Shown here: piece by piece, positions 6,665 through 37,490 of the stretch
Position numbering within the stretch: position 1 is the stretch's first letter
Layout of the letters: every line of letters begins with the position of its first letter
Source of the DNA: Sulfurospirillaceae bacterium
GTDB lineage: Bacteria > Campylobacterota > Campylobacteria > Campylobacterales > Sulfurospirillaceae
Direction of reading: 5' to 3'
DNA: 64,000 nucleotides
NCBI GenBank assembly: GCA_028684065.1
Contig: JAQUGO010000010.1
Location: forward strand, 1 to 64,000
Position numbers and translations under genes: made by a program
The notes under the pieces: model-generated
What the model saw: only the letters and a program-made list of their open reading frames with translations
Told to the model about the DNA's origin: nothing
Databases searched by the model: none

Positions 6665-6979
6665 CTATTTTATTCTTACTTTATTTTGTATTTTTAAAAA
6701 AGGAAATACTAAAAAAGACATTACTATTGTAACAAACATAGTTCTGTTTACAAAATAATCTCCAAAAAGCATTAAAAAGAAAAGCATTAAAAAGAATACA
6801 TAAATTCCAACAAAATTAATCTTTTTAGCCAGTAAAATCAATGCACTATAAATGGAAAAAACTAAGATCATTTCCAACCAATAAAAATACCCAAAATCTA
6901 AAAAATAGGGTTGGATAAATGTTGTTGCATTAAAGCCCTCACCTACATAGAGATTGGAAGTATTGATTAATAGTTTCAT
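6665..6979 (-). pseudogene. C-terminal remnant of a second Wzy-like polymerase
   Basis: This 104-residue membrane protein aligns by eye with the last quarter of the full-length polymerase immediately upstream. Its FNATTFIQPYFLDFGYF region matches FNARTYLYPFYHDLHFA, and the same order of hydrophobic segments follows. It lacks the N-terminal three quarters. It starts with ATG overlapping the polymerase stop (ATGA), so it is still translated in principle. It is best read as the leftover of a duplicated or exchanged wzy gene. It also contains an exact 15-base tandem duplication (6766-6795) that repeats five residues, a further sign of relaxed selection. An alternative is a small accessory membrane protein. 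Confidence 0.6.
6766..6795. repeat. 15-base tandem duplication
   Basis: The unit AAAGCATTAAAAAGA occurs twice back to back at 6766-6780 and 6781-6795 inside the wzy remnant. It is in frame and duplicates the residues FLMLF. It is a simple slippage-type duplication. Confidence 0.9.
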
Positions 6980-14523: not shown

Positions 14524-14524
14524 A

Positions 14525-18391: not shown

Positions 18392-18392
18392 A

Positions 18393-20043: not shown

Positions 20044-20058
20044 GTTCATGAATTGAAC
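20044..20058. promoter_or_regulatory. Candidate operator 2 of the MarR-type regulator
   Basis: GTTCATGAATTGAAC has perfect 5-base inverted arms (GTTCA, TGAAC) around TGAAT. It overlaps the end of the fcl gene and lies 37 bases from a sister element at the regulator start. Confidence 0.35.
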
Positions 20059-21026
20059 GCTTGTTTAAACCATGTGTAAACTTTTGCTATCCCCTCTTCA
20101 AGTTCAACTTTATGTTTCCACCCTAAATCATGAAGTTTAGACGGGTCAGTGAGCTTTACCATCGTTCCATCAGGTTTAGAGGTATTAAAAATAAGTTTTC
20201 CTTCAAAGCCAACTATCTTTTTGATAAGTTCTGCTAACTCTTGGATACTGATGTCAACACCTGTGCCAATGTTGATATGCGTATTTCTTATCTCGCTTTC
20301 ATGAGATTCATAAGTATCTTTAAAGTCTCTTTGTTCCATGATGAACACACACGCATCAGCCATATCTTCGGAGTATAAAAATTCTCGTCTTGGTTTTCCA
20401 CTACCCCATATCTCAACTTCTTTATCCCTTCGCAATTTTGCTTCATGTATTTTACGTAACAAGGCTGGCAGAACATGAGATTTTTCTAAATCAAAATTAT
20501 CATTGGGACCATAAAGATTGGTTGGCATGACTGAAATGAAGTTTGTGCCATATTGAAGGTTATAGCTTTCACACATTTTGATGCCCGCGATTTTAGCTAT
20601 AGCATAGGGTTCATTGGTATATTCGAGTTCACTTGTAAGCAGATACTCTTCTTTCATTGGCTGAGGGCAATTTTTAGGATAAATGCATGTAGAACCTAAA
20701 AAGAGAAGTTTTTTAACACCATGTACATAACTTTGATGAATGACATTGTTTTGAATCGCCAAGTTTTCATAGATAAAGTCTGCTCTATAGGTATTGTTAG
20801 CGACGATGCCCCCCACTTTGGCGGCAGCAAGAATGACGTACTCTGGTTTTTCTATTTCAAAAAACTCAGCAACGGCTCTTTGATCGGTCAAATCAAGTTC
20901 AGCATGAGTGCGAGTAATAATGTTGGCATAGCCTTTACATGTAAGACTTTTAACAATAGCGCTGCCAACAAGACCTCGGTGTCCTGCAACGTAAATTTTA
21001 GAAGTTCTATCCATCATCTTACTCAA
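20046..21026 (-). CDS. fcl: GDP-L-fucose synthase
   Basis: 326 residues, the normal length. [15 protein letters not shown] is the NADP-binding motif of the GMER family, [12 protein letters not shown] carries the conserved Ser/Cys region and [10 protein letters not shown] the catalytic Tyr-X3-Lys. It performs the 3,5-epimerisation and 4-reduction of GDP-4-keto-6-deoxymannose to GDP-L-fucose. Gmd is encoded directly upstream with an 8-base overlap, and fucosyltransferases are encoded at 27608 and 55440. Confidence 0.95.
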
Positions 21027-22137
21027 AATAACTCATGATTTTGTAGCCACCCTCTTTAAGGTAAACATCTTTGGTCATCAATTTTAAGTCTGATTTCATC
21101 ATATCATTGACCAAATCTTGCAAATCATGCTCCCTTGTCCAGCCTAATTTTTGTTCAGCTTTACTAGGGTCACCCAAAAGGAGATCAACTTCGGTTGGCC
21201 TAAAATAGCGTGGGTCAACGGCTACAACTTCTTTGCCTATCTCTACTTGGTACAAAGGATTGCTACATGCAAGCACATACGCTTTTTCTTCGACCCCAAC
21301 GCCTTTAAATTCTAGCTCAATACCTGCATACGCAAAGGCCATTTTCACAAAATCTCTGACTGTGGTTGTTTGTCCTGTTGCGATAACCCAGTCTTCAGGC
21401 TCAGGAGCTTGAAGGATCATCCACATCATGCGCACGTAGTCTTTCGCATGTCCCCAGTCACGTTTGGCATCCAAGTTACCAAGATAAAGTTTATCTTGAA
21501 GTCCTAAAGCTATCTTTGAAGTTGCCCGTGTGATTTTTCGTGTTACAAAAGTCTCACCACGCACCGGTGATTCGTGGTTAAATAAAATACCATTACATGC
21601 AAACATACCATAAGCTTCACGGTAATTAACCGTTATCCAGTACGCATACATCTTCGCAACGGCATAAGGGCTTCGTGGATAAAAAGGTGTTGTCTCTTTT
21701 TGGGGAGTTTCTTGTACTTTTCCATAAAGTTCGCTTGTACTTGCTTGGTAAATTTTAGTTTTTTGACTAAGTCCCAAAAGTTTGACAGCTTCAAGAATTC
21801 TAAGCGTTCCTGTACCATCTGCATTAGCGACATATTCGGGTGTTTCAAAGCTTACATGTACATGGCTCATCGCTGCTAGATTATAGATTTCGTCAGGTTG
21901 TACTTCTTGGATGATACGCGTTATATTCATACTATCGGTCATGTCGCCATGGTGTAAAATCAAATTTCGATTTTCAACATGAGGATCTTGATAGAGGTGG
22001 TCGATTCTATCGGTATTGAAAAGTGAACTTCTTCGCTTCATGCCATGAACGATATAACCCTTTTTAAGTAAAAATTCTGCCAAATAGCTTCCATCTTGTC
22101 CAGTAATACCTGTTATTAATGCTACTTTTTGATTCAT
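21019..22137 (-). CDS. gmd: GDP-mannose 4,6-dehydratase
   Basis: 372 residues. [19 protein letters not shown] is the NADP-binding signature of Gmd, STSELYGK the Thr/Ser-Glu catalytic segment, and [15 protein letters not shown] the Tyr-X3-Lys. [14 protein letters not shown] is also characteristic. The product is the substrate of Fcl. The start overlaps the manC stop by 4 bases. Confidence 0.96.
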
Positions 22138-23465
22138 ATAGTTTCCCTTTTAAAGTCATCTTCTATTCTTACAATATCATCTTCACCCGTATAACTTCCT
22201 ACTTGCGCTTCTATCAAAATGATAGGAATTTTGCCCAAATTCTCAAGGCGGTGAATTTCGCCTGATTTGATATACGTGGATTCATTTTCTCTCACAATAA
22301 ATGTTTTATCTTCAACTCTTACCGTTGCAGTTCCACTCACAACAACCCAATGCTCATTGCGATGAAAATGCTTTTGTAAAGAAAGACGTTTGCCTGGTTT
22401 GACCATAATCTTTTTTATTTTATAGCCGCTTTTATCTTCAAGTACCGTATATGTTCCCCATGGCCTGTGAACGGTGTTATGTGTCGTTGTGAGTAATGAG
22501 TTTTGAGTTTTGAGTTTTGAAACAATCTCTTTGACCTTTTGAGAACTTCCTTTTCGACTGATAAGCAAAGCATCTTCGGTATCAATGATAATCAAATCTT
22601 TAATGTCAATGGTGCAAACTTGTTTGTGTGATAGTATAAAATTATTGTTTTCATCATTGTCCAATTCATCAGAGAGTGCATCAAAACTTCCTACATCGCT
22701 CCAGTTAATATCGCTTGGCACCATTTTGACTTTATCACTTTTTTCCATTACCGCATAATCGATACTATCTTCAGGTATGGCCATCATTGCTTCGTGTTTA
22801 ATACGTATCATGTGTCCATCATTCACGTTCTTGCAGGCTTGTTTTGAAGCTTCATAGATAAGCGGGGAATAATGTTTAAGTTCTTCTAAAAAAATACCGG
22901 CTTTAAAACAGAACATACCGCTATTCCAATAATAATTACCTTTCGCAACATAGTTTTTTGCTGTCATCTCATCAGGTTTTTCTTTAAAACTTTGTACATC
23001 TTCGCCATTCGCTTCAATGTATCCATAACCCGTCTCAGCATAACGCGGTTTAATACCAAAAGTAACTAAAAATCCCTCATTGGCCAAAACTTCCGCTCGT
23101 TTAACCACCGCTTGATATGCATTTTGATCTTTAATCAAATGATCACTCGGAGTTACTAAAACAACCGTTTCAGGAGCAAGGGTTAAACATGCCAAAGCGA
23201 TGGCTGGGGCCGTATTGCGACCAATGGGTTCCAATAAGTATCGATTATTCGTTTTGCCTAGCTCTTCCAGTTGGTCAAGTGCTAGAAAATATTGCTCACT
23301 GTTGGATACTATCAACTGCTCATCACACAATGCATTATTACGCAAAACTGTAAGTTGAAATAAAGATTGATTGTCAAAAAGTTTGACAAATTGTTTGGGC
23401 ATAAGGGTGCGGCTTAGTGGCCAAAGTCGCGTTCCACTTCCACCGCATAAAATTAAATTAACCAA
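22134..23465 (-). CDS. manC: Mannose-1-phosphate guanylyltransferase / mannose-6-phosphate isomerase
   Basis: About 443 residues from the TTG at 23465, which I prefer because GGGAG lies 7 bases upstream and the protein then begins [18 protein letters not shown] as in other ManC/AlgA proteins; ATGs at 23489 and 23483 would give odd extensions into galE. The N-terminal two thirds are the nucleotidyltransferase; the C-terminal cupin ([24 protein letters not shown]) is the type II phosphomannose isomerase. It supplies GDP-mannose for Gmd. The linker is encoded by three copies of a 7-base repeat. Confidence 0.93.
22498..22518. repeat. Heptanucleotide tandem repeat (GAGTTTT)x3 inside manC
   Basis: Three perfect copies of GAGTTTT at 22498-22504, 22505-22511 and 22512-22518, followed by GA. 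On the coding strand this reads through the linker between the two ManC domains. The unit is not a multiple of three, so gain or loss of a copy would shift the frame. Confidence 0.85.
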
Positions 23466-24477
23466 GCTTTTTCTCCCATTCATAAGCACTTTTACAAATA
23501 AATTTTAGATTATTATACCGTGGAGTCCATTTCATTTGCCTGATAATTTTTGCATTATTTGAAATCAAACTGGCGGGATCACCTTCTCTGCGAGGAGCAA
23601 TCTCTACAGGGAAATCTTTACACGTAAGCTCTTTGAGTGTCTGAATAACCTCTTTGACCGAATAGCCTCTTCCATATCCTATATTAAAAATATCACTAGG
23701 ATTATTTTTCAAATACTCAATTGCTTGAATATGAGCAGATGCTAAATCATCCACATGAATATAGTCCCTCACGCATGTCCCATCACTTGTAGCGTAGTCA
23801 TCTCCAAAAATAGACATTTTAGTGCGTTTGCCTGTAGCACATTCAGACGCTATTTTGATAAGATGTGTTGCAATGGGAAAACTCTGTCCTATGCGAGGGC
23901 TTACACTTCCCATATCAGCTCCTGCTACATTAAAATATCTAAATATCACATATTTAAACTCCGGGTTAGCAAGTGCCACATCTTGAATAACACGCTCACT
24001 CATCAACTTACTCATCCCATAGGGGTTAATAGGTTTGGTTTCAAAATTCTCATCAATACCACTTTTAGGTACAACTAAAGGCTCACCATAAACAGCAGCC
24101 GTTGAGCTAAAGATAAATTGTTTTACGCCATTTTCAAGAGCACAGTGTATGAGATTGGTTGTATTGACCGTATTGTTCATATAGTATTTCAAAGGATTTT
24201 GCACGGATTCTGGCACAACAATGGAAGCGGCAAAGTGTAAAATTGTCTCAATACTTTCTGCATGGAGCAGTGCCGCTACTTTTGGGAAATCACATAAATC
24301 AAGCTCTATAAATTTAAAGGGCTTAATGCTTTGCAATGTTTCTAATGTTTTCCGGCTTCCCGTACTCAAATTATCCACAATTAAAATCTCTTCACCTTGC
24401 TCTAAAAGTTGCTTGGCAACGTGAGCACCAATGTACCCAGCGCCTCCCGTTATAAGAATTTTTGGTTTACTGGACAT
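23458..24477 (-). CDS. galE: UDP-glucose 4-epimerase
   Basis: 339 residues. ILITGGAGYIGAHVAKQLL is the GalE NAD-binding start, FSSTAAVYG and NPYGMSKLMSE hold the catalytic Ser and Tyr-X3-Lys, and DYIHVDDLASAH is a typical late motif. It interconverts UDP-glucose and UDP-galactose (or the HexNAc forms) and would provide the galactose or GalNAc donor for the GT6 and other transferases in locus B. It overlaps the initiating transferase gene upstream by 11 bases and manC downstream. Confidence 0.93.
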   Translation of the reverse strand: MSSKPKILITGGAGYIGAHVAKQLLEQGEEILIVDNLSTGSRKTLETLQSIKPFKFIELDLCDFPKVAALLHAESIETILHFAASIVVPESVQNPLKYYMNNTVNTTNLIHCALENGVKQFIFSSTAAVYGEPLVVPKSGIDENFETKPINPYGMSKLMSERVIQDVALANPEFKYVIFRYFNVAGADMGSVSPRIGQSFPIATHLIKIASECATGKRTKMSIFGDDYATSDGTCVRDYIHVDDLASAHIQAIEYLKNNPSDIFNIGYGRGYSVKEVIQTLKELTCKDFPVEIAPRREGDPASLISNNAKIIRQMKWTPRYNNLKFICKSAYEWEKKLG

Positions 24478-25483
24478 CGTCTTTCCTTAGTGTGTCAGGT
24501 GTTAAAATAAAATAAAATAAAATAAAACATAAAATATACAAGCCTAATATCACAATATCATCTCTCACTTTAAAACCTAAACCAAGATAAGAAAAAAGCA
24601 TTTGCATAAGCCCGATTAATAAAACTGTTTTACGCGTATCGCCGTATTGTTGTTTTAAAATAATATGGTGAATATGCGTTTTATCAGCATGAAAAGGATT
24701 CTGGTGATGAAGAACTCTTCTTAGCATCACAATTAAAGTATCGAGAATGGGTACAGCACACAATAGTAAAACAGAAATAGCCGTAATATAGTCTTTTTGG
24801 ATAGCATAAACGACGACAATTGATATGGTGAAACCTAACACCATGCTCCCAGAATCCCCCATAAAGAGTTTTGCAGGGTGCCAATTGAGTACCAAAAATC
24901 CAAATATTGCGCATAGTATGATTGATGAAAAATAAAATAAAAAAGGATCAGTATATTTAAAACCCATATACGCAAAAGGAAGGAGTATCATCACCGAAAC
25001 CAAAGAAGCTAAACCATCAAGCCCATCAATGAGATTGAGTGCACTCACAAAACCTGCTATTCCGAAGGCTACAATAAACACTGAAAACCAAACATTAAGA
25101 ATAACCTCATGCCCAAAAAATGTTCCAAAATGTTGAATATCAAACCCTACAAAATAAAGTAAAATAGCAGCTATGGCCGTGAAAAAAAGTTTTAGTGTAG
25201 AGGAGACAGACCAAATATCATCACAAAGTCCTACGACAAAGACCAATGACAAAGGCACAAGAAAAAGATAAGAGGTTTGTAAATCGCATATATAACATCC
25301 CAAAAGACATGCGCTAAAAAGAGCCATTCCACCACTTCGAGGCGTGACATGTTGATGGGTACTTCGAGCATTTGGAATATCAAGAATTTTGATGATATGC
25401 ATATATTTTACTAAAAGATAGTTTAGGCCCATCGATAGTAAAAAAACCACACCGATTTTGACCAAAAACAATACTGTTATCAT
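24467..25483 (-). CDS. Undecaprenyl-phosphate GlcNAc-1-phosphate transferase (WecA/MraY family)
   Basis: 338-residue polytopic membrane enzyme. Motifs: LDIPNARSTHQHVTPRSGG near 35-53, VGLCDDIWSV, LNLIDGLDGLAS, LFMGDSGSMVLGF and the HADKTHIHH loop with the HIHH signature of WecA. It would initiate the second glycan of the cluster. The last dozen residues are encoded by a (TTTTA) pentanucleotide repeat, so slippage would alter the C-terminal tail just before galE starts. No Shine-Dalgarno is obvious at the ATG. Confidence 0.9.
   Translation of the reverse strand: MITVLFLVKIGVVFLLSMGLNYLLVKYMHIIKILDIPNARSTHQHVTPRSGGMALFSACLLGCYICDLQTSYLFLVPLSLVFVVGLCDDIWSVSSTLKLFFTAIAAILLYFVGFDIQHFGTFFGHEVILNVWFSVFIVAFGIAGFVSALNLIDGLDGLASLVSVMILLPFAYMGFKYTDPFLFYFSSIILCAIFGFLVLNWHPAKLFMGDSGSMVLGFTISIVVVYAIQKDYITAISVLLLCAVPILDTLIVMLRRVLHHQNPFHADKTHIHHIILKQQYGDTRKTVLLIGLMQMLFSYLGLGFKVRDDIVILGLYILCFILFYFILTPDTLRKDDVQ
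24504..24528. repeat. Pentanucleotide tandem repeat (AAAAT)x4 plus AAAAC
   Basis: Four perfect AAAAT units (24504-24523) and one imperfect unit (24524-24528). It lies within the last codons of the WecA-like gene, about 30 bases before the galE start. Confidence 0.85.
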
Positions 25484-25558
25484 ACGGAGGTACTGCCCTT
25501 GCTTATTGAATATTGTTTCATTGTATATAAATATAGATTTTACTTTGTTTAAAGTAGC

Positions 25559-26677
25559 CTACAGAACCTCTTTGATTAATCGTGTATAGTATGCATTTAC
25601 TCTGTCTGTGCTGTAATATTCACGAACCAAAAGTCTACCTTCTTTTCCACCTTGTTGTAACACTTCTCGGCTCAAAGACATCGTTTTTTTCATAGCTTCA
25701 ACAAGTGATTGTACATCGTGTGGTTGAACTAAATAGCCATTTTCCCCATGCATGCAAAGCTCTTTACAACCAGCTATATCAGAGGTAATAATAAATTTTT
25801 CACAACTATTGGCTTCCAATAAAACACGAGACAAGCCTTCTCTGTAACTTGGCAAGACAACAACATCACATTGCACAAAAAACTCTTGAATCATATCTGT
25901 TTTGCCAAGATAGGTAATATACCCCTCCCGTTCCCATGCTAACACGTCTTCTTTCGAAATAGCGGTGGGATTATCTTCATCAAAGATACCTGCTAGTAAA
26001 AATTTGCCTCGAGTTGAATGCTGTCGTATGTGTTTAATCGCTTCAATATATTCATACACACCTTTATCTCTCAACAATCTTGCTACCATTAGAAATACAA
26101 TGTCTTGCGTATCCTCTTTTAAAGGACATGGAAGATAAACATCAATATCAATACCTTCCCCGGGAAGTAAAACACTCTTCTCTAAATCAATTATCCTTTG
26201 ACTTGTAAATTCATCCAAATCATCTTGATTGAGAAACAGTACATGACGTGCGGAAGTTAATGCCAAAGTATAAAGCTTTTCAACAATTTTTGAAATACTA
26301 TTTTTTTTCAGAAAAGCAGAACCAAGTCCTGAGATAATCGAAATATGAGGTATCTTTAACCATCGAGCGGCAAAGGAACCATAGATATTTGGCTTGATCG
26401 TATAGTGTAAAATCAAATCTGGTTTAATGTGGTGATAAAGACGCAATAATCTCCAAAAATACATCACATCTTGCAAAGGATTCACCCCTTTTCGCTGCAT
26501 TTTTATTTGAAAGAGTTCTACCCCTAATTCTTGTGCAATCGCATGAGAATTGCTTGCAAAATCATCATACCCGGCAACACAAACAATGCGGTATTGGCAT
26601 TGTAATACCTTAATGAGTTCTTTGCGAAACTGCATAATCGACCAAAGGGTATTAGAATTAAGAAGGATGGTTTTCAT
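25559..26677 (-). CDS. Family 4 glycosyltransferase (PglA-like)
   Basis: 372 residues, GT-B fold. The N-terminal domain includes HYTIKPNIYGSFAARWLKI and SGLGSAF, typical of the PglA/CapM-like GT4 group; the C-terminal domain has VARLLRDKGVYEYIEAI and PSYREGLSRVLLEA with the E-X7-E-like donor site. It overlaps the neighbouring GT2 gene by 20 bases. It transfers a sugar to the lipid-linked intermediate; the specificity is unknown. Confidence 0.88.
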   Translation of the reverse strand: MKTILLNSNTLWSIMQFRKELIKVLQCQYRIVCVAGYDDFASNSHAIAQELGVELFQIKMQRKGVNPLQDVMYFWRLLRLYHHIKPDLILHYTIKPNIYGSFAARWLKIPHISIISGLGSAFLKKNSISKIVEKLYTLALTSARHVLFLNQDDLDEFTSQRIIDLEKSVLLPGEGIDIDVYLPCPLKEDTQDIVFLMVARLLRDKGVYEYIEAIKHIRQHSTRGKFLLAGIFDEDNPTAISKEDVLAWEREGYITYLGKTDMIQEFFVQCDVVVLPSYREGLSRVLLEANSCEKFIITSDIAGCKELCMHGENGYLVQPHDVQSLVEAMKKTMSLSREVLQQGGKEGRLLVREYYSTDRVNAYYTRLIKEVL

Positions 26678-27611
26678 GCGTTGTTTTCTTGAATTTTTGT
26701 TTACATGTAAAGCGCTTTAATTTTTGAATAATCAATGTTGGATTGAATACAATGGCTAATAAGAAATAGCTTAGTTTACATATAGTGTGATGACTCCATT
26801 CAGAAAAAACTGCTCGAGAATACATACTATTACTAATCTTTTCGAAAAAACTTTGTTCATAGTCCACCGTAGAAAGGACAAGTCCTTTGTTAATAAAAGA
26901 CACATCCTGGTCATATAAAGATTTCATAAAAGCACAATAAGCATTTGTTGTATTGAGTATCATCAATGCCCGTTTACTTTGCGTGATACTTCCACTATCC
27001 ACTTGATAGTAGGTTAAGGGTTGATTGATATTACTCATTTTACCTAGCATACTGTATCGACACCATAACTCATAGTCTTCGCAATACAGAGCCTTTTTAT
27101 TGTACCGTAATACAGTTTTACGAAACATCACGCTGGGATGAAAAAAAGGATTTTTTGCTTCCATTAACAACTCCCTAATGGCCTCATCCGTTTGTGCTAC
27201 ATGCAGTGTCGTTATGCTCTTTCCCACCTCATTCACAATATACATTTCACTACCGCACAATACTAAGTTTTCATCCGTATCAAAAAGATTTTTTTGCATT
27301 TCTAACTTTTGAACATCCCACCAATCACCCACATCAATACGTGCAATCAAATCAGCCTTAGAAGCATCTAAGCCTTTGTTTAAAGAGGTAATCAGCCCTA
27401 AATTGCATCTGTTTTCAATAAGTTTAATACGAACATCTTTTTTTTGCCACGCAAGCAATATACTACGCGTCATCTCCAAGTCGTCATCTTGAATGATGAT
27501 AAACTCAAAATCACACATACTTTGTTCTAATACAGACACAATTGTTTTGTCTAAATGCTCAAGCTTAGGATGATACACACTCATGATGATAGAAAGAGAG
27601 GACGCTATCAT
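26658..27611 (-). CDS. Family 2 glycosyltransferase
   Basis: 317 residues from the ATG at 27611, which overlaps the fucosyltransferase stop as ATGA; an ATG 12 bases upstream is also possible. SIIMSVYHP and FIIIQDDDLE form the nucleotide-binding core, and ARIDVGDWW corresponds to the DXD region. The C-terminus has one hydrophobic stretch and a basic tail. It probably builds the same oligosaccharide as the adjacent GT11 and GT6 enzymes. A TTACATGTAA palindrome at 26701 encodes FTCK near the C-terminus. Confidence 0.87.
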   Translation of the reverse strand: MIASSLSIIMSVYHPKLEHLDKTIVSVLEQSMCDFEFIIIQDDDLEMTRSILLAWQKKDVRIKLIENRCNLGLITSLNKGLDASKADLIARIDVGDWWDVQKLEMQKNLFDTDENLVLCGSEMYIVNEVGKSITTLHVAQTDEAIRELLMEAKNPFFHPSVMFRKTVLRYNKKALYCEDYELWCRYSMLGKMSNINQPLTYYQVDSGSITQSKRALMILNTTNAYCAFMKSLYDQDVSFINKGLVLSTVDYEQSFFEKISNSMYSRAVFSEWSHHTICKLSYFLLAIVFNPTLIIQKLKRFTCKQKFKKTTHENHPS

Positions 27612-28465
27612 AATCTTATCCATTCATCAGGAACGATGTCTTGACTTTGTGCTTGCATCTTTGCATTAGCAAACCACTGTTTAGGGGCAATAACTATTTT
27701 ATGAGGATTTTGATTGAGCCAAGCACCCCACCAACTAAAACTACTATTGGCTATGATATTATGCTGGCATAGGCTCATAAGATACATATCTTCATGAGGT
27801 GTTTGCCCCTCATCACAGATATAAAGAGCATTTTCTATGGGCATATTTTCTTTGACCCAAGCGATATCATCAGAAAAAATAACATACATTCGGTCTTGAC
27901 AATATTCATTCAAATAATGCATTGCATTTTGATAATATTCTAGTGAGCAAAGTCCATGATAAGACTGCGCTGAAGCATTGAGATAATCTCCTCTTCTTAC
28001 ATGTAAAGAGATGCTATATGGGGCATACTCTATGAGCTGTTGTATTTTTTGAGTGTATGCTGACAATGGATTGCGCAGTTGAAATTGTTGCAATAATAAT
28101 TCTTTAATATCTTTAAAATAGCGTTCTGTTTGAAAATAACCTTCAATATAAACACTATCATTGGGGCTAGCTAACAATGGAGAAAAAAGTAGCGTTTTCT
28201 CCGTTATATAATGCTTCGCTGGTATATTAAAACGATTAAAAAATTTACGCAATAATCCATTTACGTTAAAAGCTTTCAAATCATCTATGCTAGCCGATTC
28301 TAAATCAATACCATAATACTCTAGTCCAAAACCATGATGCGCAGTATTTTTTTGAATAAATGAAAGGTCTAACTTTACAGCATATCCTTTTGCATGTAAA
28401 GCTTTGGCATAGGCGTATTGAAACATTTGGTTACCAAGCCCACCCATGATTTTAATGACTATCAT
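27608..28465 (-). CDS. Alpha-1,2-fucosyltransferase (GT11)
   Basis: 285 residues, the usual GT11 length. The start IKIMGGLGNQMFQYAYAKAL is the family hallmark, HVRRGDY at 155-161 is the GDP-fucose binding motif I, and NSSFSWWGAWL near 238-248 is motif III. It adds L-fucose in alpha-1,2 linkage, normally to galactose. GDP-L-fucose is made by enzymes of the same locus. A GT6 transferase gene lies 0.7 kb upstream in the same transcript, the pair known from blood-group-like antigens. Confidence 0.95.
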   Translation of the reverse strand: MIVIKIMGGLGNQMFQYAYAKALHAKGYAVKLDLSFIQKNTAHHGFGLEYYGIDLESASIDDLKAFNVNGLLRKFFNRFNIPAKHYITEKTLLFSPLLASPNDSVYIEGYFQTERYFKDIKELLLQQFQLRNPLSAYTQKIQQLIEYAPYSISLHVRRGDYLNASAQSYHGLCSLEYYQNAMHYLNEYCQDRMYVIFSDDIAWVKENMPIENALYICDEGQTPHEDMYLMSLCQHNIIANSSFSWWGAWLNQNPHKIVIAPKQWFANAKMQAQSQDIVPDEWIRL

Positions 28466-29190
28466 AGCACTATTCCAAATCGTAAATATAGTATTTGCAG
28501 AACATTATTAATGTTTAATAATTTTTTGCACTTCTTGATAGTTTCGCACGCAATTGTATTTTGAGGCATTTTCGGCTTTGTATCTTTTTTATCTATATGA
28601 CCCAGCAACTGCTCAACACTCTGTACCTTTTCATAAGCAATAGTATCTTCCCATTCAAAACCAAAAAACATCGTATCAGGATTACATGTAATAAATGGCA
28701 TCTTAGAATTGGATTGTTCTAGCATTTTTAGAACCTCTTGATAGGCAAATCCAGCAAAATTCTCTTCTTTTTTTTCTAAAAATAATAGTTTATTGTTATT
28801 ATCAACGTCTACAAAAGAAAGATGATGTTCAATATTAGTCAGCACTTCATAAGTAAATAAAGGAACTTCTATATATCCCCTAGAAGCTACTCTCATTAAT
28901 TCTTTAATAAAAATATCTAATTGATTTAAAGGGATATGTTCCAAAACATGAGAACATATCACATAATCAAACTCTTTATCCTTAAAAGGGAAAAGCTCTC
29001 CTGTGTAATAAACGATCTCTTTTTTGAGATTTCTTTTTTCTGTGCCACCTGCTTGAAGCTTTGCTAGCTCATCATTTTCATAGATTTTTTCTAGTAATAC
29101 ATTAGACCTATAAAAAGGCGTATTTCCTGGTCCTACTTCTAAGACCTTGTCTTTTTTTTGAATACCTTTTATTTTTTCAGGGAAAAACAT
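28462..29190 (-). CDS. SAM-dependent methyltransferase, class I
   Basis: 242 residues. EVGPGNTPFYRSN near residue 18 is the SAM-binding glycine-rich motif, and FDYVICSHVLEHIP is the Methyltransf_11-type post-II motif. The rest is not diagnostic. In this setting it could methylate a sugar or the chain end. It overlaps the GT11 gene by 4 bases. The substrate is unknown. Confidence 0.8.
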   Translation of the reverse strand: MFFPEKIKGIQKKDKVLEVGPGNTPFYRSNVLLEKIYENDELAKLQAGGTEKRNLKKEIVYYTGELFPFKDKEFDYVICSHVLEHIPLNQLDIFIKELMRVASRGYIEVPLFTYEVLTNIEHHLSFVDVDNNNKLLFLEKKEENFAGFAYQEVLKMLEQSNSKMPFITCNPDTMFFGFEWEDTIAYEKVQSVEQLLGHIDKKDTKPKMPQNTIACETIKKCKKLLNINNVLQILYLRFGIVL

Positions 29191-29200
29191 TGTTTCTCTT

Positions 29201-29995
29201 TTATTTTATATAGCATTTATACCTAGCCATTAGCCCAATAATATACTCTTTGCACCAAGAAATAAAGGAATTCGTAGTGTAAAATTTGATGGTATTAACA
29301 TTAATAATATTGGGTTTATGAATTAAAAGGATTTTGGGTTTATAAGGCAAATTTCTACCTTCAGGATATAAGTAAGCAGGCTCCAATATATTCACATTGT
29401 GCTCTAATTGCTGAATTTCAAGATTTAAATATGCATTCCAATAACTCTCATCGTGCCAAAGAGCCATCAAACCATTATCCAAATCTTTTTCAATAGCTTG
29501 CAATAATTGCAAAGACATCTTCAAAAAGTCATCCCTGCGCCCACCGCAAATTCCACCCGCAAAGTAATATTTTCCTTTCTCAACATAAGCCATAGAAGAT
29601 TTACGTCTCTCATAGGTAAAATCAGGTTCTACTTTATTATAAAAGCCTGGATGCAAACAAGCCACAAGTTTTTTATCTATACCAAAAAACTCTTCCAAAC
29701 TCACATCAACGATAAACTGACAATTTGCATTAAAAAATACTATATAATCAAAATTTGCCAATTGCTCTTTAATACGTGAAAACATACGATAACGATACAA
29801 CGTATTGAAAGGCCAACCTAAATTATCTTGATGAATAATTGTCAGAGTATTATTTGTCTCAAATTTTTTGGTATCGGTAAATACAAAATAATGTTTTTGT
29901 ACATCTTTACAAAAATGTTTTTCGCAAGAGCTGTAAAAATCTGACCAAAATTTATAATATTCTCCTGTACAGATATATAAAATTGCTATCTTCAA
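29201..29995 (-). CDS. GT6-family glycosyltransferase with NXN motif (blood-group A/B transferase homologue)
   Basis: 264 residues from the TTG at 29995, chosen because it overlaps the upstream stop (TTGA) and has GGAAG 8 bases before it; upstream in-frame codons lie inside the neighbouring gene. Features of CAZy family 6 are visible: IAILYICTGEYYKFW at the start, GWPFNTLYRYRMF near 60-72, FFNANCQF with Asn89-Ala-Asn91 in place of the metal-binding DXD of animal enzymes, and LWHDESYWNAYL near the C-terminus. Bacterial GT6 enzymes with NXN are metal-independent alpha-1,3-Gal or GalNAc transferases that act on fucosylated acceptors. The nearby GT11 gene supports that use here. Confidence 0.85.
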   Translation of the reverse strand: MKIAILYICTGEYYKFWSDFYSSCEKHFCKDVQKHYFVFTDTKKFETNNTLTIIHQDNLGWPFNTLYRYRMFSRIKEQLANFDYIVFFNANCQFIVDVSLEEFFGIDKKLVACLHPGFYNKVEPDFTYERRKSSMAYVEKGKYYFAGGICGGRRDDFLKMSLQLLQAIEKDLDNGLMALWHDESYWNAYLNLEIQQLEHNVNILEPAYLYPEGRNLPYKPKILLIHKPNIINVNTIKFYTTNSFISWCKEYIIGLMARYKCYIK

Positions 29996-30867
29996 AGTTT
30001 TTTCTTCCAGCAAGGTAATAGAAGTTTTATAATCACTCTTATAAAACTTATTCGCTTTAGTGTACAAAAGCAAATTGATGGCCATAAGTATTGTATTATT
30101 GCTTTATACTTGTAACATAAAGCCGTATTTGAAAGCCATCGTAAATTCCATTTACATATTGCTTGTGCATATGAAGGTTCATTTTTATAGAGATTTAAAA
30201 TATTTCTTTCTGCTTCTTGCATTTTTAATATATTAGACGATAAATGATTATCGTGTTTTCTATAATAACTCAAAAACTCATTACAAAATCCTATTTCATA
30301 ACACTTTGCTATTTTTAACCACATTTGAAAATCTTCAATATAACCCTCATCATAATCAAATTGCATATACACTTCTTTATTGATTAAAACACTAACACTG
30401 TTGATAAAAAAATCTCCCATCAAAAGCTCTTCGAAAATCCTTCCAGATTTATAGCATTCTTCAATTTTCATCAATTTATTACTATTATTATCTACAATAG
30501 TAATTTTTGAATACACCATGGCATATTGAGGATTATGTTCTAAAAAACCAACTAACTTTTCAATTTTTTCACAATGAAAGTAATCATCTGATGCAAGTAA
30601 TGCAATATATTTACCCTTTGCTTTTTGCCTTAATATTTTTAATGTTGGGATGATTCCTTTATTTTCTTGAAGTGACAAATTAAAATTATACTTTTTGTGA
30701 AGTTCGCGTAAAATATCGGTTGTCTTATCAGAAGACCCATCATCAACAATGATTAATTCAATATTATTATAAGTTTGATTCACAACGCTTAATACTGCTT
30801 CTTTTATATAGCTTTCATGGTTATATGAAGGTATTAAAACACTTACCAATGGTTCAGTTTTTCGCAA
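29992..30867 (-). CDS. Family 2 glycosyltransferase
   Basis: 291 residues. VSVLIPSYNHESYIKEAVLS and LIIVDDGSSDKTTDIL are the GT2 core; LASDDYF is the DXD region. The C-terminal third has a hydrophobic stretch that may associate with the membrane. Overlaps the flippase gene upstream by 14 bases and the GT6 gene downstream by 4. The donor is unknown. Confidence 0.9.
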   Translation of the reverse strand: MRKTEPLVSVLIPSYNHESYIKEAVLSVVNQTYNNIELIIVDDGSSDKTTDILRELHKKYNFNLSLQENKGIIPTLKILRQKAKGKYIALLASDDYFHCEKIEKLVGFLEHNPQYAMVYSKITIVDNNSNKLMKIEECYKSGRIFEELLMGDFFINSVSVLINKEVYMQFDYDEGYIEDFQMWLKIAKCYEIGFCNEFLSYYRKHDNHLSSNILKMQEAERNILNLYKNEPSYAQAICKWNLRWLSNTALCYKYKAIIQYLWPSICFCTLKRISFIRVIIKLLLPCWKKKL

Positions 30868-32113
30868 ACAAGATTCCTCTAAAAAACCAGAATAAAAACG
30901 ATGTATACATTAGCGATTTTATCATATATGCATAAGTAACACCTATTAATCCAAAATGATTAATACAAACTATAGAAAGCACGAAAAATAACAAATTAAA
31001 CCCTATTTCTGAAAATATATATATTTTAGTCATTGTTTTTGCCAACATTAAATAGCCTAATAAAACACCCATAACCTTAAAAACATCACCAATTAGCTGA
31101 AATTTAAATAATTCTTCCATAGCTAAAAAGTCCTTTGTAAATATAAAGACAATAATAAAATCTCTTAGAAAGAAGATGCTTATAGCCATTAATATTGTCA
31201 AAGGTATTACAACTTTATACCCAGCCCACAATTCTTTTTTTAAAAGTTTTATATCTTGCATTTCAGACAATCTAGGTAAAAAGTACATTGAAATGATTGA
31301 AACAATAATTGCCAAATAAATATCTGATATCCTCCACATTGCCTGCCATAAACCAGTATCAACCCATGAACTTGTTTTACCAATATAATTTCGTATCAAT
31401 ATTTGTGTTGTTGGTACCGATATGGCAGAAGAAATTGCCATTAATGCAAAATTAAAAACATTTTTAAAATAAGTTGATTCAAACTTATACGTAAAATTTA
31501 ATAATTTGAACCATTTTTTTTTCTTTAAAAAAAACAATGTTACTAAAAAAGCTAAAGATTGACTCAGCGTTAGACCTAACAATACTCCGTAAATTTGAAA
31601 CCAATAAACCAATAAACCAATAGAACATAGTGACATTAAATACCCTGCTATTTGCAGGACAACTAACAAAGATATTTCTTTGAATCCATTTAAAATTGCT
31701 AAGAAAAAATTGTTGAAAACAAATAAAAAAATATTGAGTGAAAAAAATAAAAATATTGATGAATACTGTTCTGTTCCAAATAAGACTATAGATAAATAGT
31801 CTTTAAAAAACAATATTAAACTTGATGAAATGAATGTAAGGACTAATGAAACCTTTATTGCCGTGCTCCAATAAAAATTGAGCTGATTTTGATTAGATGA
31901 ATATTCTGCTGTATGCTTTACAATACCTGTTTCTATTGTACCAACGCAAAGGCTCATGATCATTTGCATAAAGCTCTGAAACTGCCCCATAAAAGCAATG
32001 CCTATAGGCCCAGCATAGCTTGCTACTAACTTATTAGTAACAAGCCCCAAAACTAATCTACAAATAAAACCTATAGATACAATGAACGATACCTTAAATA
32101 AAGTCATAGCCAA
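30854..32113 (-). CDS. wzx: Second polysaccharide flippase (Wzx/O-antigen translocase type)
   Basis: 419 residues with about twelve membrane helices. The N-terminus with NKLVASYAGPIGIAFMGQFQSF resembles WzxE/WzxB-type O-antigen translocases. It would export the locus B repeat unit. No full-length Wzy gene is evident in locus B. The coding sequence holds three perfect copies of an 8-base repeat at 31598-31621, which could make its expression switchable. Confidence 0.87.
   Translation of the reverse strand: MAMTLFKVSFIVSIGFICRLVLGLVTNKLVASYAGPIGIAFMGQFQSFMQMIMSLCVGTIETGIVKHTAEYSSNQNQLNFYWSTAIKVSLVLTFISSSLILFFKDYLSIVLFGTEQYSSIFLFFSLNIFLFVFNNFFLAILNGFKEISLLVVLQIAGYLMSLCSIGLLVYWFQIYGVLLGLTLSQSLAFLVTLFFLKKKKWFKLLNFTYKFESTYFKNVFNFALMAISSAISVPTTQILIRNYIGKTSSWVDTGLWQAMWRISDIYLAIIVSIISMYFLPRLSEMQDIKLLKKELWAGYKVVIPLTILMAISIFFLRDFIIVFIFTKDFLAMEELFKFQLIGDVFKVMGVLLGYLMLAKTMTKIYIFSEIGFNLLFFVLSIVCINHFGLIGVTYAYMIKSLMYTSFLFWFFRGILFAKN
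31598..31621. repeat. Octanucleotide tandem repeat (AAACCAAT)x3 inside wzx
   Basis: Three perfect copies at 31598-31605, 31606-31613 and 31614-31621. On the coding strand they encode part of a membrane helix (GLLVYWF). The unit length is not divisible by three, so slippage would cause a frameshift in the middle of the flippase. Confidence 0.85.
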
Positions 32114-32150: not shown

Positions 32151-33410
32151 TTACAATCGCCACGTAGGATTTTTTACAATCCCTTTGACATCAACGATAA
32201 CACCACCTAGTTTTGCATAGCTAGCTTCTGAATACTCAACAAATTCTTGATGCCCAACTGCCACAACGATAGCATCGTATGTTTTATTACCCTCTAATGG
32301 ATTTCCTACTAAATCATACCCATAGTACTTTTTTGCTTCTGCCTTATCAACCCAAGGGTCATATACATCCACATGGCATTTAAAAGCTTCTAACTCCGTG
32401 ATAATATCTACAACTTTAGTGTTACGAATATCGGGGCAATTTTCTTTAAAGGTTAAGCCTAAAACCAAAACATTTGCATCTTTAATTTTGGCATCATGCT
32501 CTATCATAAGTTTAATCGTTTTGTCGGCGATATATTTTCCCATACCATTATTGATCTGGCGCGCTCCCAAAATAAGGTTGGGTTTATAACCCAATTCTTC
32601 GGACTTGTAGGTCAAATAATAAGGATCAACGCCGATGCAATGTCCACCTACAAGGCCTGGTTTAAGTTTAATAAAATTCCACTTCGTAGCGGCCGCTTCA
32701 ATGACTTCATTGGTGTCAATGCCCATGGTATTAAAAATAAGGGCTAGTTCATTGATAAGCGCGATATTGACATCTCTTTGAGTATTTTCGATAACTTTAC
32801 TAGCTTCTGCTACTTTAATACTTGAAGCTTTATGCGTTCCAGCAAGGATAATACTTCGGTACAAGGTATCAACTTTATCAGCGATTTCAGGCGTTGAACC
32901 AGATGTCACTTTCAAAATGTTTTTAACCGTATGTGTTTTATCCCCTGGATTAATACGCTCAGGAGAATAGCCCGCGTAAAAATCGCTGTTAAAAGTTAGC
33001 CCTGAAACTTTTTCGAGCACTGGCACACAAACTTCTTCGGTGACGCCTGGGTAAACTGTGCTTTCATAAATAACAATATCTTCTGTTTTGAGCACTTTTC
33101 CTACCGTTTCACTTGCCTTAACAAGCGGTGTCAAATCAGGACGATTGCTTGTATCGATAGGGGTAGGGACCGTCACAATAAAAATTGTGCATGTACGCAA
33201 ATCTTCAAGATTGGTGCTGAAGTGAATACCATTCTTGATGGCTTCTTGCACCTCTGTAGCATCCAATTCCATCGTTCTATCATAACCTGCTCTGAGCTCA
33301 TCAATACGTGTTTGAAAGATGTCAAATCCAACGACAGTATATTGTTTTGCAAATTCCACAGCGAGTGGAAGTCCCACATATCCAAGTCCAATAATTGCTA
33401 TTTTATCCAT
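32151..33410 (-). CDS. UDP-sugar 6-dehydrogenase (TviB/WbpO-like)
   Basis: 419 residues. KIAIIGLGYVGLPLAVEFA is the NAD-binding start, ESTVYPGVTE and GGHCIGVDPYYL carry the conserved catalytic region with the active Cys near 258, and VLVLGLTFKENCPDIRNTK is the C-terminal signature. Overall it most resembles the Vi-antigen TviB and WbpO group, which oxidises UDP-GlcNAc or UDP-GalNAc to the uronic acid. That would make the locus B glycan acidic. The exact substrate is not fixed by sequence alone. Confidence 0.88.
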   Translation of the reverse strand: MDKIAIIGLGYVGLPLAVEFAKQYTVVGFDIFQTRIDELRAGYDRTMELDATEVQEAIKNGIHFSTNLEDLRTCTIFIVTVPTPIDTSNRPDLTPLVKASETVGKVLKTEDIVIYESTVYPGVTEEVCVPVLEKVSGLTFNSDFYAGYSPERINPGDKTHTVKNILKVTSGSTPEIADKVDTLYRSIILAGTHKASSIKVAEASKVIENTQRDVNIALINELALIFNTMGIDTNEVIEAAATKWNFIKLKPGLVGGHCIGVDPYYLTYKSEELGYKPNLILGARQINNGMGKYIADKTIKLMIEHDAKIKDANVLVLGLTFKENCPDIRNTKVVDIITELEAFKCHVDVYDPWVDKAEAKKYYGYDLVGNPLEGNKTYDAIVVAVGHQEFVEYSEASYAKLGGVIVDVKGIVKNPTWRL

Positions 33411-33418
33411 AAATCATC

Positions 33419-34237
33419 CTAAAAATTTTCTTTCACTCTTAAAAAGCTTGGAAAACGTGGTTTACCACTTTGTGGTAACTCCTTGTATTGATACGTAATC
33501 GTCGTTCCAACAGCAGGAGGATTTCTTCTGAGCGTGTCAGATAAACCTGAGCCTATTTCAAAAACCACCCCATTACGCTTTTGACATGTAAGGCTTCCAG
33601 TCATATTATGATATTTTCCTTGCCCAGGTTTATAGCCTATCACTTCACACTCTTCGTCGTAGAAACTTTTTACTTTTAAGGAGTTTTTATCACGTTTAGC
33701 GATATAAGAGGTAATAGGATTTCGTATAACCACTCCTTCACCACCCGCATTTTCAACCTCAGACAAAAAGGCCTTAAGATCTTTTTTACCTTTGCATGTA
33801 CGCTGAGCTATAATATGTAAATAAGGTAAATCGTGCTGTTTTATATAGTTTTCAAGCACTGCTAATCGCTGCATTAAACCGCCCTTTGCATGCGGAACTT
33901 CAAAAATATTATAGGTGATTTGATGCCAACCAGCATGCGGTGTTTGTTGCCTAACAATCGAAAGAATATTTTGAAAATCCCCATGTTTACTCCACAGCTC
34001 GCCATCCAATTCAAAAGGTGGAAAGTCCTTGGTAAACCAAGCAGGTGCGTGAAGTTCAACGCCACCACGTGAAACAAGTTTCTTCCCATCCCAATAAGCC
34101 CTTACACCATCCAGTTTTTCACTCATCAGCCATCCCGTAACGTTTTGGCCTTTATACTCTTTTAGAAGCAACAGTTCGGGTGGCTCTGCATGTAAAAAAA
34201 TTAATACGATGAAACAGCATGCAATGTATTTAAACAT
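33419..34237 (-). CDS. ligE: Periplasmic ATP-dependent DNA ligase (LigE type)
   Basis: 272 residues from the ATG at 34237, which overlaps the rmlB stop as TAATG. A signal peptide is clear: MFKYIACCFIVLIFLHA then E. The nucleotidyltransferase motif I is SEKLDGVRAYWDG with Lys41 as the adenylated residue; FELDGELW (III), GGEGVVIR at 165-172 (IV) and SLKVKSF (V) follow, then a small OB-fold. This minimal ligase with a leader is the LigE group, found in Proteobacteria and Campylobacterota many of which are naturally competent; a role in DNA uptake is suspected but not proven. Its place in a sugar operon is odd. Confidence 0.9.
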   Translation of the reverse strand: MFKYIACCFIVLIFLHAEPPELLLLKEYKGQNVTGWLMSEKLDGVRAYWDGKKLVSRGGVELHAPAWFTKDFPPFELDGELWSKHGDFQNILSIVRQQTPHAGWHQITYNIFEVPHAKGGLMQRLAVLENYIKQHDLPYLHIIAQRTCKGKKDLKAFLSEVENAGGEGVVIRNPITSYIAKRDKNSLKVKSFYDEECEVIGYKPGQGKYHNMTGSLTCQKRNGVVFEIGSGLSDTLRRNPPAVGTTITYQYKELPQSGKPRFPSFLRVKENF

Positions 34238-35253
34238 TAAACGTGACTTCTGTACTTTTGAAGATACCACGCAATCGTCTTCACAATACCACTTTCAAAA
34301 TTTTCCTCAGCTTCCCATCCAAGTTTTGTCTCTATTTTAGTTGCATCAATTGCATAACGTCTATCGTGCCCAGCTCTATCTTCCACAAAACTGATTAACG
34401 CTTTATATGAACCCTCATGGGGCACCATTGTGTCAAGCACTTCACAGATTTTATGGGCGATGTAGAGATTGTCTCGCTCGTTTCGTCCACCAATGTTATA
34501 CACTTCGCCACTATTGCCCTCGTGGTATACCAAATCAATGCCTTTGCAGTGGTCTAGTACATACAACCAATCACGGATATTTTTTCCATCGCCATAAATA
34601 GGAATATTCTGCCCACTCAATGCTTTACGTATAATGGTAGGGATGAGTTTTTCATCGTGTTGTTTTGGACCGTAGTTGTTAGAACAATTGGTAATAACTG
34701 TATTCATTCCATACGTATGATGATACGCTCGCACTATCATATCACTCCCCGCTTTAGACGCAGAGTAAGGTGAATTGGGAGCATAAGGTGTACTTTCTGT
34801 AAAAAATCCTGTCTCTCCAAGCGTACCATAAACTTCATCGGTGGAAATGTGGTGAAAACGGCACTCTTCATAACCTTCTTTACGAATAAAAGGCTTTTCC
34901 ATCCAATATTTGTACGCCACATCAATCAAAGTAAATGTACCATTGACATTGGTTTCAACAAAGACACCAGGATTTTTAATGGAATTGTCCACGTGGCTTT
35001 CTGCCGCAAAGTGAATAACGCCTTGGATATCAAATTCATTGAAAAGGTTTTCAACGACATTTCTATCGCGAATATCGCCTTGCACAAAAGTATAACGCTT
35101 ATTTTCGGCAACTTCATTAAGATTTTCAAGATTACCAGCATAAGTTAAAAGGTCTAAATTCACCAAACCATAATGCTCATACTTTTCTAAAAAATAAGGC
35201 ACAAAGTTTGAACCGATAAAGCCTGCACAGCCCGTTACTAAAATATTCTTCAT
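34237..35253 (-). CDS. rmlB: dTDP-glucose 4,6-dehydratase
   Basis: 338 residues. ILVTGCAGFIGSNFV is the NAD motif, HFAAESHVDNSI and HHISTDEVYGTL are RmlB hallmarks with the Thr-Asp-Glu catalytic triad, and YSASKAGSD holds the Tyr-X3-Lys. Its product, dTDP-4-keto-6-deoxyglucose, is the branch point for L-rhamnose (RmlC/RmlD at 50651-52068) and for the formylated 3-amino sugar (44487-47193), both encoded on the opposite strand. Confidence 0.96.
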   Translation of the reverse strand: MKNILVTGCAGFIGSNFVPYFLEKYEHYGLVNLDLLTYAGNLENLNEVAENKRYTFVQGDIRDRNVVENLFNEFDIQGVIHFAAESHVDNSIKNPGVFVETNVNGTFTLIDVAYKYWMEKPFIRKEGYEECRFHHISTDEVYGTLGETGFFTESTPYAPNSPYSASKAGSDMIVRAYHHTYGMNTVITNCSNNYGPKQHDEKLIPTIIRKALSGQNIPIYGDGKNIRDWLYVLDHCKGIDLVYHEGNSGEVYNIGGRNERDNLYIAHKICEVLDTMVPHEGSYKALISFVEDRAGHDRRYAIDATKIETKLGWEAEENFESGIVKTIAWYLQKYRSHV

Positions 35254-35254
35254 T

Positions 35255-36118
35255 TTATTTCACCAAATCTTTGAGATATTGTCCATAACCATTTTTGCTT
35301 AATGGCTTAGCAATCTCTAAGACTTGCTCTTTAGTAATCCATCCGGAATTTAAAGCAATTTCTTCCAAACACGCTATTTTGAAACTTTGGCGTTTTTCAA
35401 TCATCTGAACAAACAATCCAGCTTCCATAAGGCTATCGTGTGTCCCTGTATCAAGCCATGCAAAACCACGACCTAAAATTTCAACTTTTAATTTACCTTG
35501 TTTTAAGTAAGCCTCATTGACCGCTGTGATTTCTAGTTCACCTCGTTCAGATGGCTTAACAGCCTTCGCAATTTCGATGACACTATTATTGTAAAAATAA
35601 AGCCCTGTAACGGCAAATGGTGATTTTGGATTTTGTGGTTTTTCTTCAATACTAATTGCCTTTTGGTTTTCATCAAACTCCACGACACCAAAGCGTTGTG
35701 GGTCTTTAACTTGATAGCCAAAAACGATAGCACCCTCTTCCAATTGAGCAGAGCTTTGTAACAAAGGTGTAAATCCTTGACCGTAAAAGATATTATCTCC
35801 TAGAATTAAGCAGACATTATCATTCCCTATAAACTCTTCCCCTAAAATAAACGCTTGGGCTAAGCCATCAGGGCTTGGTTGAATTTTATAGGAAAGAGAA
35901 ATGCCCCACGTACTCCCATCGCCCAAGAGTTCCTCAAATTTACCAATATCTTGCGGTGTGGAGATAATTAATATCTCGCGAATACCTGCTAACATCAATA
36001 CCGATAACGGATAGTAAATCATCGGTTTATCGTAAATGGGCAATAATTGCTTACTAATGGATTTAGTCACAGGATAAAGCCTTGTGCCACTCCCTCCCGC
36101 TAAGATAATGCCTTTCAT
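35255..36118 (-). CDS. rmlA: Glucose-1-phosphate thymidylyltransferase
   Basis: 287 residues, normal for Rml[21 protein letters not shown] is the nucleotide-binding loop; [26 protein letters not shown] and [21 protein letters not shown] are family signatures; [10 protein letters not shown] lies near the C-terminus. It makes dTDP-glucose for RmlB. A one-base gap separates it from rmlB and from the mutase gene. Confidence 0.96.
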
Positions 36119-36119
36119 A

Positions 36120-37490
36120 TTAGTGTAACCCCTCTTTTGCTTGAAGAATAATCTCGTTTAATTTTTGCTCGTAAAGTTTAGCATGGGCTTCATTAGTTGA
36201 CTCAAAGCGTGTAACCAACACAGGGGTTGTATTGCTCGCCCTTACCAATCCCCATCCATCACTAAAAATAACCCTAACGCCATCTACATCAACGATCTCT
36301 TTAATCACTGGAAAATCTGCAGGGGGATTTTTTAAAAGCTCTTTGACTTTATCAACCAATGGAAACTTATCGTTCTCATTCGTCTCAACTTTAAGCTCTT
36401 CAGTCGAATAAACAACAGGAAGTTTAGCAATCTCAGCATCCACATCCAAACCATTTTTGACCATTTCAATCATACGAAGTGTGGCGTAAATCGCGTCATC
36501 GTAACCAAAATAACGGTCATTAAAGAAGAGGTGACCACTGACTTCTGCGGCAAAATCAGCATTGGTTTTGGCAATCATCACTTTAAGGTTACTGTGACCT
36601 GTTTTGTACATAATCGCATGGCCACGCTTATTAATTTCATCATACATGACTTGAGAACATTTCACTTCGCCAATCACGGTTGGATTTTTCATAGCACTGG
36701 AGAAAAGAATCGCCATGATGTCGCCTTTGACATTGTTGTGTTTGGTTAAAAACGCCAATCTATCGGCATCTCCGTCGTAAGCAAACCCAAGGGCATATTC
36801 ACCTTCAAGCTCTTTTTTGATGTCTTTTAAGTTTTTTTCGACTGTTGGGTCCGGATGATGGTTTGGAAAAGTTCCATCAGGGTCTGTAAATAAACCTTTA
36901 CATGTAAAGCCTAAAGCTTTAAAAACATCTTGCACTACAACACCTGCAACACCATTTCCACAGTCGTAAACAAAAGGTTGTTTAAAGCCTTTTAAGTGGT
37001 CAAATTCTTTAATAAGATACGCGATATAACGCTCTTTAGAATTGATGAACGTTGAAGCTGTATTGTCCTCAATGCGCATTGTATAATTGGCGATAATATC
37101 ACGACCAAGCGCATAAATATCTTCACCAAAAAACGGTTTTTTATCAATCGTAATTTTAAAACCATTGTATTCGCTTGGATTGTGTGAACCAGTTATCATA
37201 ATAGAGGCATTAGGGCTAATGCCGTCGAAGTTTTGAAAGTTGCTAAAGTAATTCACTGGGGTGGCAACTAGTCCCATATTAAGCACTTTGCAACCAGCTT
37301 TATTTAAACCACTGGTGAGATATTCGCACAATATAGGTGAATGCGAACGCGCGTCATAACCGATGGCAACATAATTACCAATTTTTTTTACATGTAAGCC
37401 TAAAAAATAACCAATCAGCTTTGTCATTTGCTCATTGAGCTCTTTTTCGTAGATACCTCTAATGTCATATTCTCTAAATATTGTTTTCAA
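36120..37490 (-). CDS. manB: Phosphomannomutase/phosphoglucomutase
   Basis: 456 residues, alpha-D-phosphohexomutase family. [10 protein letters not shown] is the N-terminal signature, [15 protein letters not shown] contains the phosphoserine, [12 protein letters not shown] is the metal-binding loop and [14 protein letters not shown] the phosphate-binding C-terminal loop. Enzymes of the AlgC/ManB type serve both mannose and glucose, so it can feed ManC and RmlA. Two TTACATGTAA palindromes are in this gene (36898 and 37388), one in each permitted reading frame. Confidence 0.93.

Follow-up and report, generated by a model that had tools for sequence, protein, structure and literature searches.

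A pair of glycosyltransferase genes, one for a GT6 enzyme and one for a GT11 fucosyltransferase, lies within a nine-gene cassette in a 64,000-nucleotide stretch of DNA from a Sulfurospirillaceae bacterium (assembly GCA_028684065.1, contig JAQUGO010000010.1, positions 1 to 64,000; hereafter the window). The best reading of this cassette is a laterally acquired O-antigen module that varies surface structure. It was probably acquired into the conserved lipopolysaccharide (LPS) locus of what is almost certainly a Sulfurospirillum species, where it would make a blood-group-A-like branch, and its benefit likely lies in surface diversification (in the face of phages and grazers) rather than in mimicry of animals.

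Insertion within the genus

The cassette comprises the genes from galE to wzx (23458-32113, 8.7 kb) and sits between manC and an NDP-sugar dehydrogenase gene. In six congeners this junction is closed: the order exonuclease-PMM-(rmlA-rmlB)-ligase-dehydrogenase runs straight into manC-gmd-fcl, and the gap between ligase and manC (1.2-2.4 kb) holds dehydrogenase genes only. At the same locus in six same-genus relatives manC is 74-83%, gmd 91-94% and fcl 82-84% identical, and over the frame on the other side (32151-38275) the relatives are mostly 57-92% identical with conserved gene order. Because of this junction comparison, GDP-fucose synthesis can be assigned to the genus frame, where it is mostly present without any GT11 gene, and the cassette to the variable part. 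As a control, eight congener O-antigen loci picked irrespective of GT6 or GT11 contained neither family. The six closed junctions favour gain here over loss in the relatives, and the G+C content of the wzx-GT2-GT6-methyltransferase end is 27-31%, against 37-40% in the frame.

Phylogenetic trees were quick ones, without bootstrap, and the constrained groups were chosen after the first tree was in hand. The GT6 of the window groups with those of Methylomonas and of Neisseriaceae, Burkholderiales and Sphingobacteriaceae metagenome-assembled genomes (MAGs), with a Shimodaira-Hasegawa-like approximate likelihood ratio (SH-aLRT) support of 99. Vertical inheritance was rejected in two forms: a single Campylobacterota GT6 clade (approximately unbiased (AU) test, 2.5e-56) and, within the genus, a pairing with the GT6 of the congener G015 (AU 0.001), which is sister to the GT6 of a Gracilibacteria MAG. 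Judged by its place in the tree, the gene is an acquisition independent of other Campylobacterota. Joint transfer of GT6 and GT11 from a Methylomonas-like donor was not resolved, the GT11 tree giving no supported sister group for the GT11 of the window. A preliminary description of this DNA had raised the question of lateral transfer, and the empty junctions within the genus, the low G+C and the GT6 tree all support it.

The tree also contains two close pairs of other sequences. The GT6 of G015 (L003 1381-2148) and that of the Gracilibacteria MAG (L035 5317-6093) are close sisters with a common unusual C-terminal tail, a likeness due to recent transfer or a mis-binned contig. The GT6 of a Clostridiales MAG (L075) and an Akkermansia MAG (L081) are nearly identical, through a binning error or very recent transfer.

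The two proteins and their genes

The GT6 protein (264 amino acids, read from a TTG at 29995 to 29201) matches PF03414 (E 2e-27, 96 bits; cut-off 25) and NCBIfam NF041524 (272 bits; cut-off 250). Its best solved structures are three constructs of Bacteroides ovatus BoGT6a (about 193 bits, E 6e-56), after which the human ABO transferases rank at about 90 bits. The GT11 protein (285 amino acids) matches PF01531 (E 3e-35, 122 bits; cut-off 23.9) and contains HVRRGDY; no homologue of it was found in the Protein Data Bank (PDB). The genome (2,670,322 bases, 16 contigs) encodes no second member of either family. The preliminary description had named a GT11 from HVRRGDY and a GT6 from its NAN motif, and the profile searches bear out both. 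The span it gave for the pair (27608-29995) also holds, although it passed over the methyltransferase-like gene in between (28462-29190), whose product possibly O-methylates a sugar of the repeat unit.

The start of the GT6 gene overlaps the stop of the preceding GT2 gene (29992-30867), and the GT11 gene begins just before the methyltransferase gene ends and itself overlaps the next GT2 gene (26658-27623); these overlaps suggest translational coupling. With overlaps or 10-bp gaps throughout, the stretch from GT6 to GT11 appears to form one operon, for which a single transcript is predicted. The "one transcript" claimed earlier fits this spacing but is a prediction from it, promoter- and terminator-like sites being no more frequent than in shuffled sequence. 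The pair had also been placed downstream of galE and the GDP-fucose genes, which reverses the order: every gene is on the minus strand, and galE, manC, gmd and fcl are transcribed after the pair.

Recurrent pairing of GT6 with GT11

Among 200 order-level genomes, 4 carry GT6 (that of the window counted) and 21 carry GT11. All three other GT6 genomes have GT11 as well, the genes being neighbours in two of the three; the chance of such co-occurrence is about 9 in 10,000 without the window genome and 9e-5 with it. In a one-genome-per-species collection, GT6 relatives occur in at least 251 contigs. Of 82 distinct GT6 loci, 67 have a GT11 in the flanks studied (6 kb at most); as these loci are the best 80 of the 251, chosen for likeness to the GT6 of the window, the figure describes that part of the family only. 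A same-strand GT11 lies within 200 bp in 37 loci, and a GT2 homologue directly adjoins GT11 in 36 of 68. Four loci (L017, L044, L065, L066) from four phyla have GT6 and GT11 fused in a single open reading frame; the GT6 domain comes first in the Hoeflea, Kuenenia and Magasanikbacteria MAGs, and the GT11 domain first in a Gastranaerophilales MAG. Nothing closely related to the methyltransferase occurs at the other GT6 loci, which rules it out as a regular component of the module. An earlier paper had already counted 36 bacterial species with GT6, plus two cyanophages (PMC3961637); no description of a near-constant GT11 partner outside animals, or of natural fusions, was found in the literature searched.

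Habitats of the carriers were read from record titles. The best 80 include Methylomonas methanica (the nearest, 57% identical), Burkholderiales, Neisseriaceae, Chitinophaga and Mucilaginibacter, as well as candidate-phylum, lake or groundwater genomes and gut bacteria. Plasmid records with a GT6 relative number only two and phage records 71, mostly cyanophages, with 31-39% identity among the matches listed. In cyanophage P-SSM2 (of Prochlorococcus) the GT11 gene precedes that for GT6 by 1.5 kb, and in phage B23 (of Synechococcus) the two genes overlap; these phage-borne GT6 are about 35% identical to that of the window, and an animal-host explanation for the cyanophage pair is unlikely. The preliminary description had linked the pair with animals and with only a few bacteria that live on hosts, a view that its frequency in free-living bacteria and its presence in cyanophages contradict.

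We tentatively propose that the GT11-GT6 pair could be primarily an environmental surface-glycan module shared with phages, at times condensed into one bifunctional protein, of which host mimicry by gut bacteria would be a secondary use. Whether or not that holds, the analysis shows that genes for A/B-like epitopes are a normal component of O-antigen variation in bacteria away from animals. This weakens the case for reading a bacterial GT6 as a sign of host mimicry or of exchange with vertebrates, and enzymes for blood-group sugar synthesis, natural GT6-GT11 fusions among them, could be drawn from environmental sources. As for the phage defence raised in the preliminary description, the glycan might have a specific role in protection from phages or grazers, with the cassette changing or capping a phage receptor. 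A cassette in a junction otherwise closed, independent acquisitions and related pairs in phage genomes would fit such a role, but any O-antigen diversification should produce the same pattern, and we regard such a role as possible. It is compatible with an acquired, variable O-antigen cassette, of which it is a plausible selective cause.

Predicted product of the cassette

The families, the insertion at a junction that relatives keep closed and the recurrent pairing are direct results; we infer the donor (GalNAc, N-acetylgalactosamine) and the acceptor (Fuc-alpha-1,2-Gal, fucosyl-galactose) and, from established O-antigen pathways, the linkages, the order of action and the LPS destination, as follows. 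A wbpL-type enzyme would start the repeat unit on undecaprenyl phosphate, and GT4 and GT2 enzymes would lengthen it to a beta-Gal. With GDP-Fuc supplied by the manC, gmd and fcl genes of the genus core, GT11 would then add Fuc in alpha-1,2 linkage, and GT6, an NXN enzyme predicted to be metal-independent, would add alpha-1,3-GalNAc to this H-type disaccharide to give the blood-group-A-like branch. Finally, Wzx would flip the unit and the polymer would be ligated to lipid A-core; the ligase-like gene at 42178 supports LPS O-antigen as the destination. The choice of Fuc-alpha-1,2-Gal as the probable GT6 acceptor follows the pairing with GT11.

For the active site, the contacts reported for BoGT6a (PMC3961637) were transferred onto its alignment with the GT6 protein, in which T10, Y13, W66, N69, T70, R73, N95, A96, N97, H122, T134, G157, W189, H190, D191, E192 and K231 are identical. 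Aligned with BoGT6a are thus NAN (NXN replacing DXD), the catalytic WHDE, the Lys231 equivalent and the tripeptide AGG, and metal-independent, retaining alpha-1,3-Gal/GalNAc transfer is predicted. The AGG sits at ABO positions 266-268, where LGG or AGG marks an A transferase. In vertebrates only A transferases have AGG, and human ABO carrying it gave A and no B antigen (PMC6351642); BoGT6a, a GalNAc enzyme, carries AGG too. Because AGG is the A-transferase tripeptide, the donor is predicted to be GalNAc and the epitope A-type, not B-type. It is rather unlikely that GT6 adds Gal, or is promiscuous, and yields a B-like epitope: GalE supplies UDP-Gal, donor tripeptides differ among bacterial GT6 (AGG, MGG, QGA and others) and the AGG rule, derived from vertebrate enzymes, is extrapolated when used on a bacterial one, but the signature itself speaks for A. 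The families, the active-site residues, the recurrent neighbourhood and the natural fusions lend good support to the enzymology first proposed, in which GT11 and then GT6 make an A/B-like trisaccharide.

Several points weigh against an acquired cassette that makes an A-like branch on LPS. First, GalE, which would perhaps supply UDP-GalNAc, has Leu at the gate position, that of E. coli Tyr299. Second, the alpha-1,2 linkage for GT11 is predicted rather than proven, because the family includes the alpha-1,3 enzyme HhFT2 (PMC4202792). Third, no Wzy lies within the cassette, and a candidate polytopic open reading frame at 6976-8220 is without a Pfam match; initiator transferase, glycosyltransferases and Wzx (PF00953, PF00535, PF00534, PF01943) do stand in one cluster, as expected of a Wzx/Wzy cluster. 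Fourth, the C-terminal lid of BoGT6a (His239/Arg243) is absent from GT6, whose tail reads PNIINVNTIKF. A frameshift was rejected as the cause: the other frames are closed and contain no GGHxxLR motif. The strict lid motif is absent in 38 of 88 matched frames, the nearest relative included (a count that takes in copies of the GT6 gene and fragments), and the lid is variable in the bacterial NXN clade rather than family-defining; in BoGT6a the Arg243/244 double mutant lowers kcat only about tenfold (PMC3961637). The missing lid and the adjacent legionaminic-type acid genes would suit a GT6 or GT11 without function, or one that forms a different linkage, such as on a capsule or on a glycan that includes the nonulosonic acid encoded next door. 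With the remaining catalytic residues intact, both frames open, the genes coupled and an initiator and wzx of its own in the cassette, we consider this improbable.

Known systems and host mimicry

The pair in the window is a further case of a known kind, given the precedents in Helicobacter mustelae, E. coli O86 and B. ovatus (PMC2846917, PMC4202792, PMC3961637). H. mustelae belongs to the same order, Campylobacterales, and the pair is therefore not as unexpected here as first thought: its GT6 gene HMU12050 (BgtA) lies beside its single fucosyltransferase gene HMU12060, and its LPS bears a monofucosyl A type 1 epitope (PMC2846917). The GalNAc specificity predicted for the GT6 of the window is known for BgtA (PMC2846917, PMC4202792). 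The comparison is one by description; among the differences, H. mustelae is a pathogen of the stomach in a host with group A, and the GT6 of other Helicobacter fall in other places in the tree. In the E. coli O86 cluster (WbnI GT6, WbwK GT11), also compared by description, an O-antigen unit likewise receives the H disaccharide and then the GT6 sugar (PMC4202792), but WbnI is a B (Gal) transferase whereas AGG predicts GalNAc here. BoGT6a (PDB 4AYL/4AYJ/4CJ8) shares NXN, AGG and the donor and catalytic contacts to Lys231 with the GT6 of the window; it alone has the lid, the tails differ and the two fall on separate branches. In Methylomonas methanica NCIMB 11130 (L006), which has the closest GT6, a GT11 follows directly, as in the window minus the methyltransferase; that GT11 is 37.5% identical to the GT11 of the window and is not its nearest.

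That this is an animal-associated bacterium hidden from immunity by the epitope, as proposed for H. mustelae, is highly improbable: GT6 is present in H. mustelae and further Helicobacter (PMC2846917) and many carriers are gut bacteria, but many others are environmental by record title, the nearest GT6 (among the best 80 of 251) is from a methanotroph, cyanophages carry the pair, and Sulfurospirillum species are known as reducers of sulfur and nitrate (PMC3035281, PMC4794192). The preliminary description had rightly guessed a sulfur-metabolising lineage, and nothing in the analysis indicates the host contact that it also raised.

The surrounding locus

The cassette is part of one long minus-strand region for surface polysaccharide, which extends from 38275 to 418 (Table 1). 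The window begins at the contig end (1-418), where this region may be cut off.

Table 1. Genes of the cassette and its frame in the window
Feature	Position	Strand	Basis
GT6 glycosyltransferase (NXN type), predicted alpha-1,3-GalNAc (possibly Gal) transferase	29201-29995	-	PF03414, NF041524, BoGT6a, active-site mapping, start junction
GT11 fucosyltransferase, predicted alpha-1,2-linkage to beta-Gal	27608-28465	-	PF01531, GT11 neighbourhood at GT6 loci
Class I S-adenosylmethionine (SAM) methyltransferase-like protein, between GT6 and GT11	28462-29190	-	PF08241 32 bits
GalE, UDP-Gal and perhaps UDP-GalNAc supply	23458-24477	-	TIGR01179 455 bits (cut-off 262)
WecA/WbpL-type undecaprenyl-phosphate sugar-1-phosphate transferase (initiator)	24467-25483	-	PF00953 122 bits; under TIGR02380 cut-off
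GT4 glycosyltransferase of repeat unit	25559-26677	-	PF00534 96 bits
GT2 glycosyltransferase, candidate for adding acceptor Gal	26658-27623	-	PF00535 71 bits
GT2 glycosyltransferase upstream of GT6	29992-30867	-	PF00535 98 bits
Wzx-type flippase	30854-32113	-	PF01943 43 bits
manC, GDP-L-fucose supply	22134-23489	-	genus-wide frame, outside cassette
gmd, GDP-L-fucose supply	21019-22137	-	genus-wide frame, outside cassette
fcl, GDP-L-fucose supply	20046-21026	-	genus-wide frame, outside cassette
Frame on other side: NDP-sugar dehydrogenase, ligase-like, rmlB, rmlA, PMM, exonuclease	32151-38275	-	
O-antigen ligase-like protein	42178-43422	+	PF04932 70 bits

Within the region, an apparently complete legionaminic-acid-type (nonulosonic acid) pathway occupies 11089-19583 (minus strand), its synthase scoring 523 bits to TIGR03569; the gene order is presumably LegB, C, H, I, G, PtmE, PtmF, LegF, PtmA, names given (synthase excepted) after the C. 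jejuni pathway. A GT10-family (Lewis-type alpha-1,3/4) fucosyltransferase gene at 55440-56459 (minus strand) is the sole PF00852 match in the genome, and GT10 together with GT11 would permit Lewis-like structures. On the plus strand, 44882-46087 encodes a formyltransferase domain and ankyrin repeats in one protein. Two MBOAT O-acyltransferase genes on the same strand (47223-48662 and 52069-53511) are 94.8% identical over their first 1168 bases and then diverge, a pair that reflects recent duplication or conversion.

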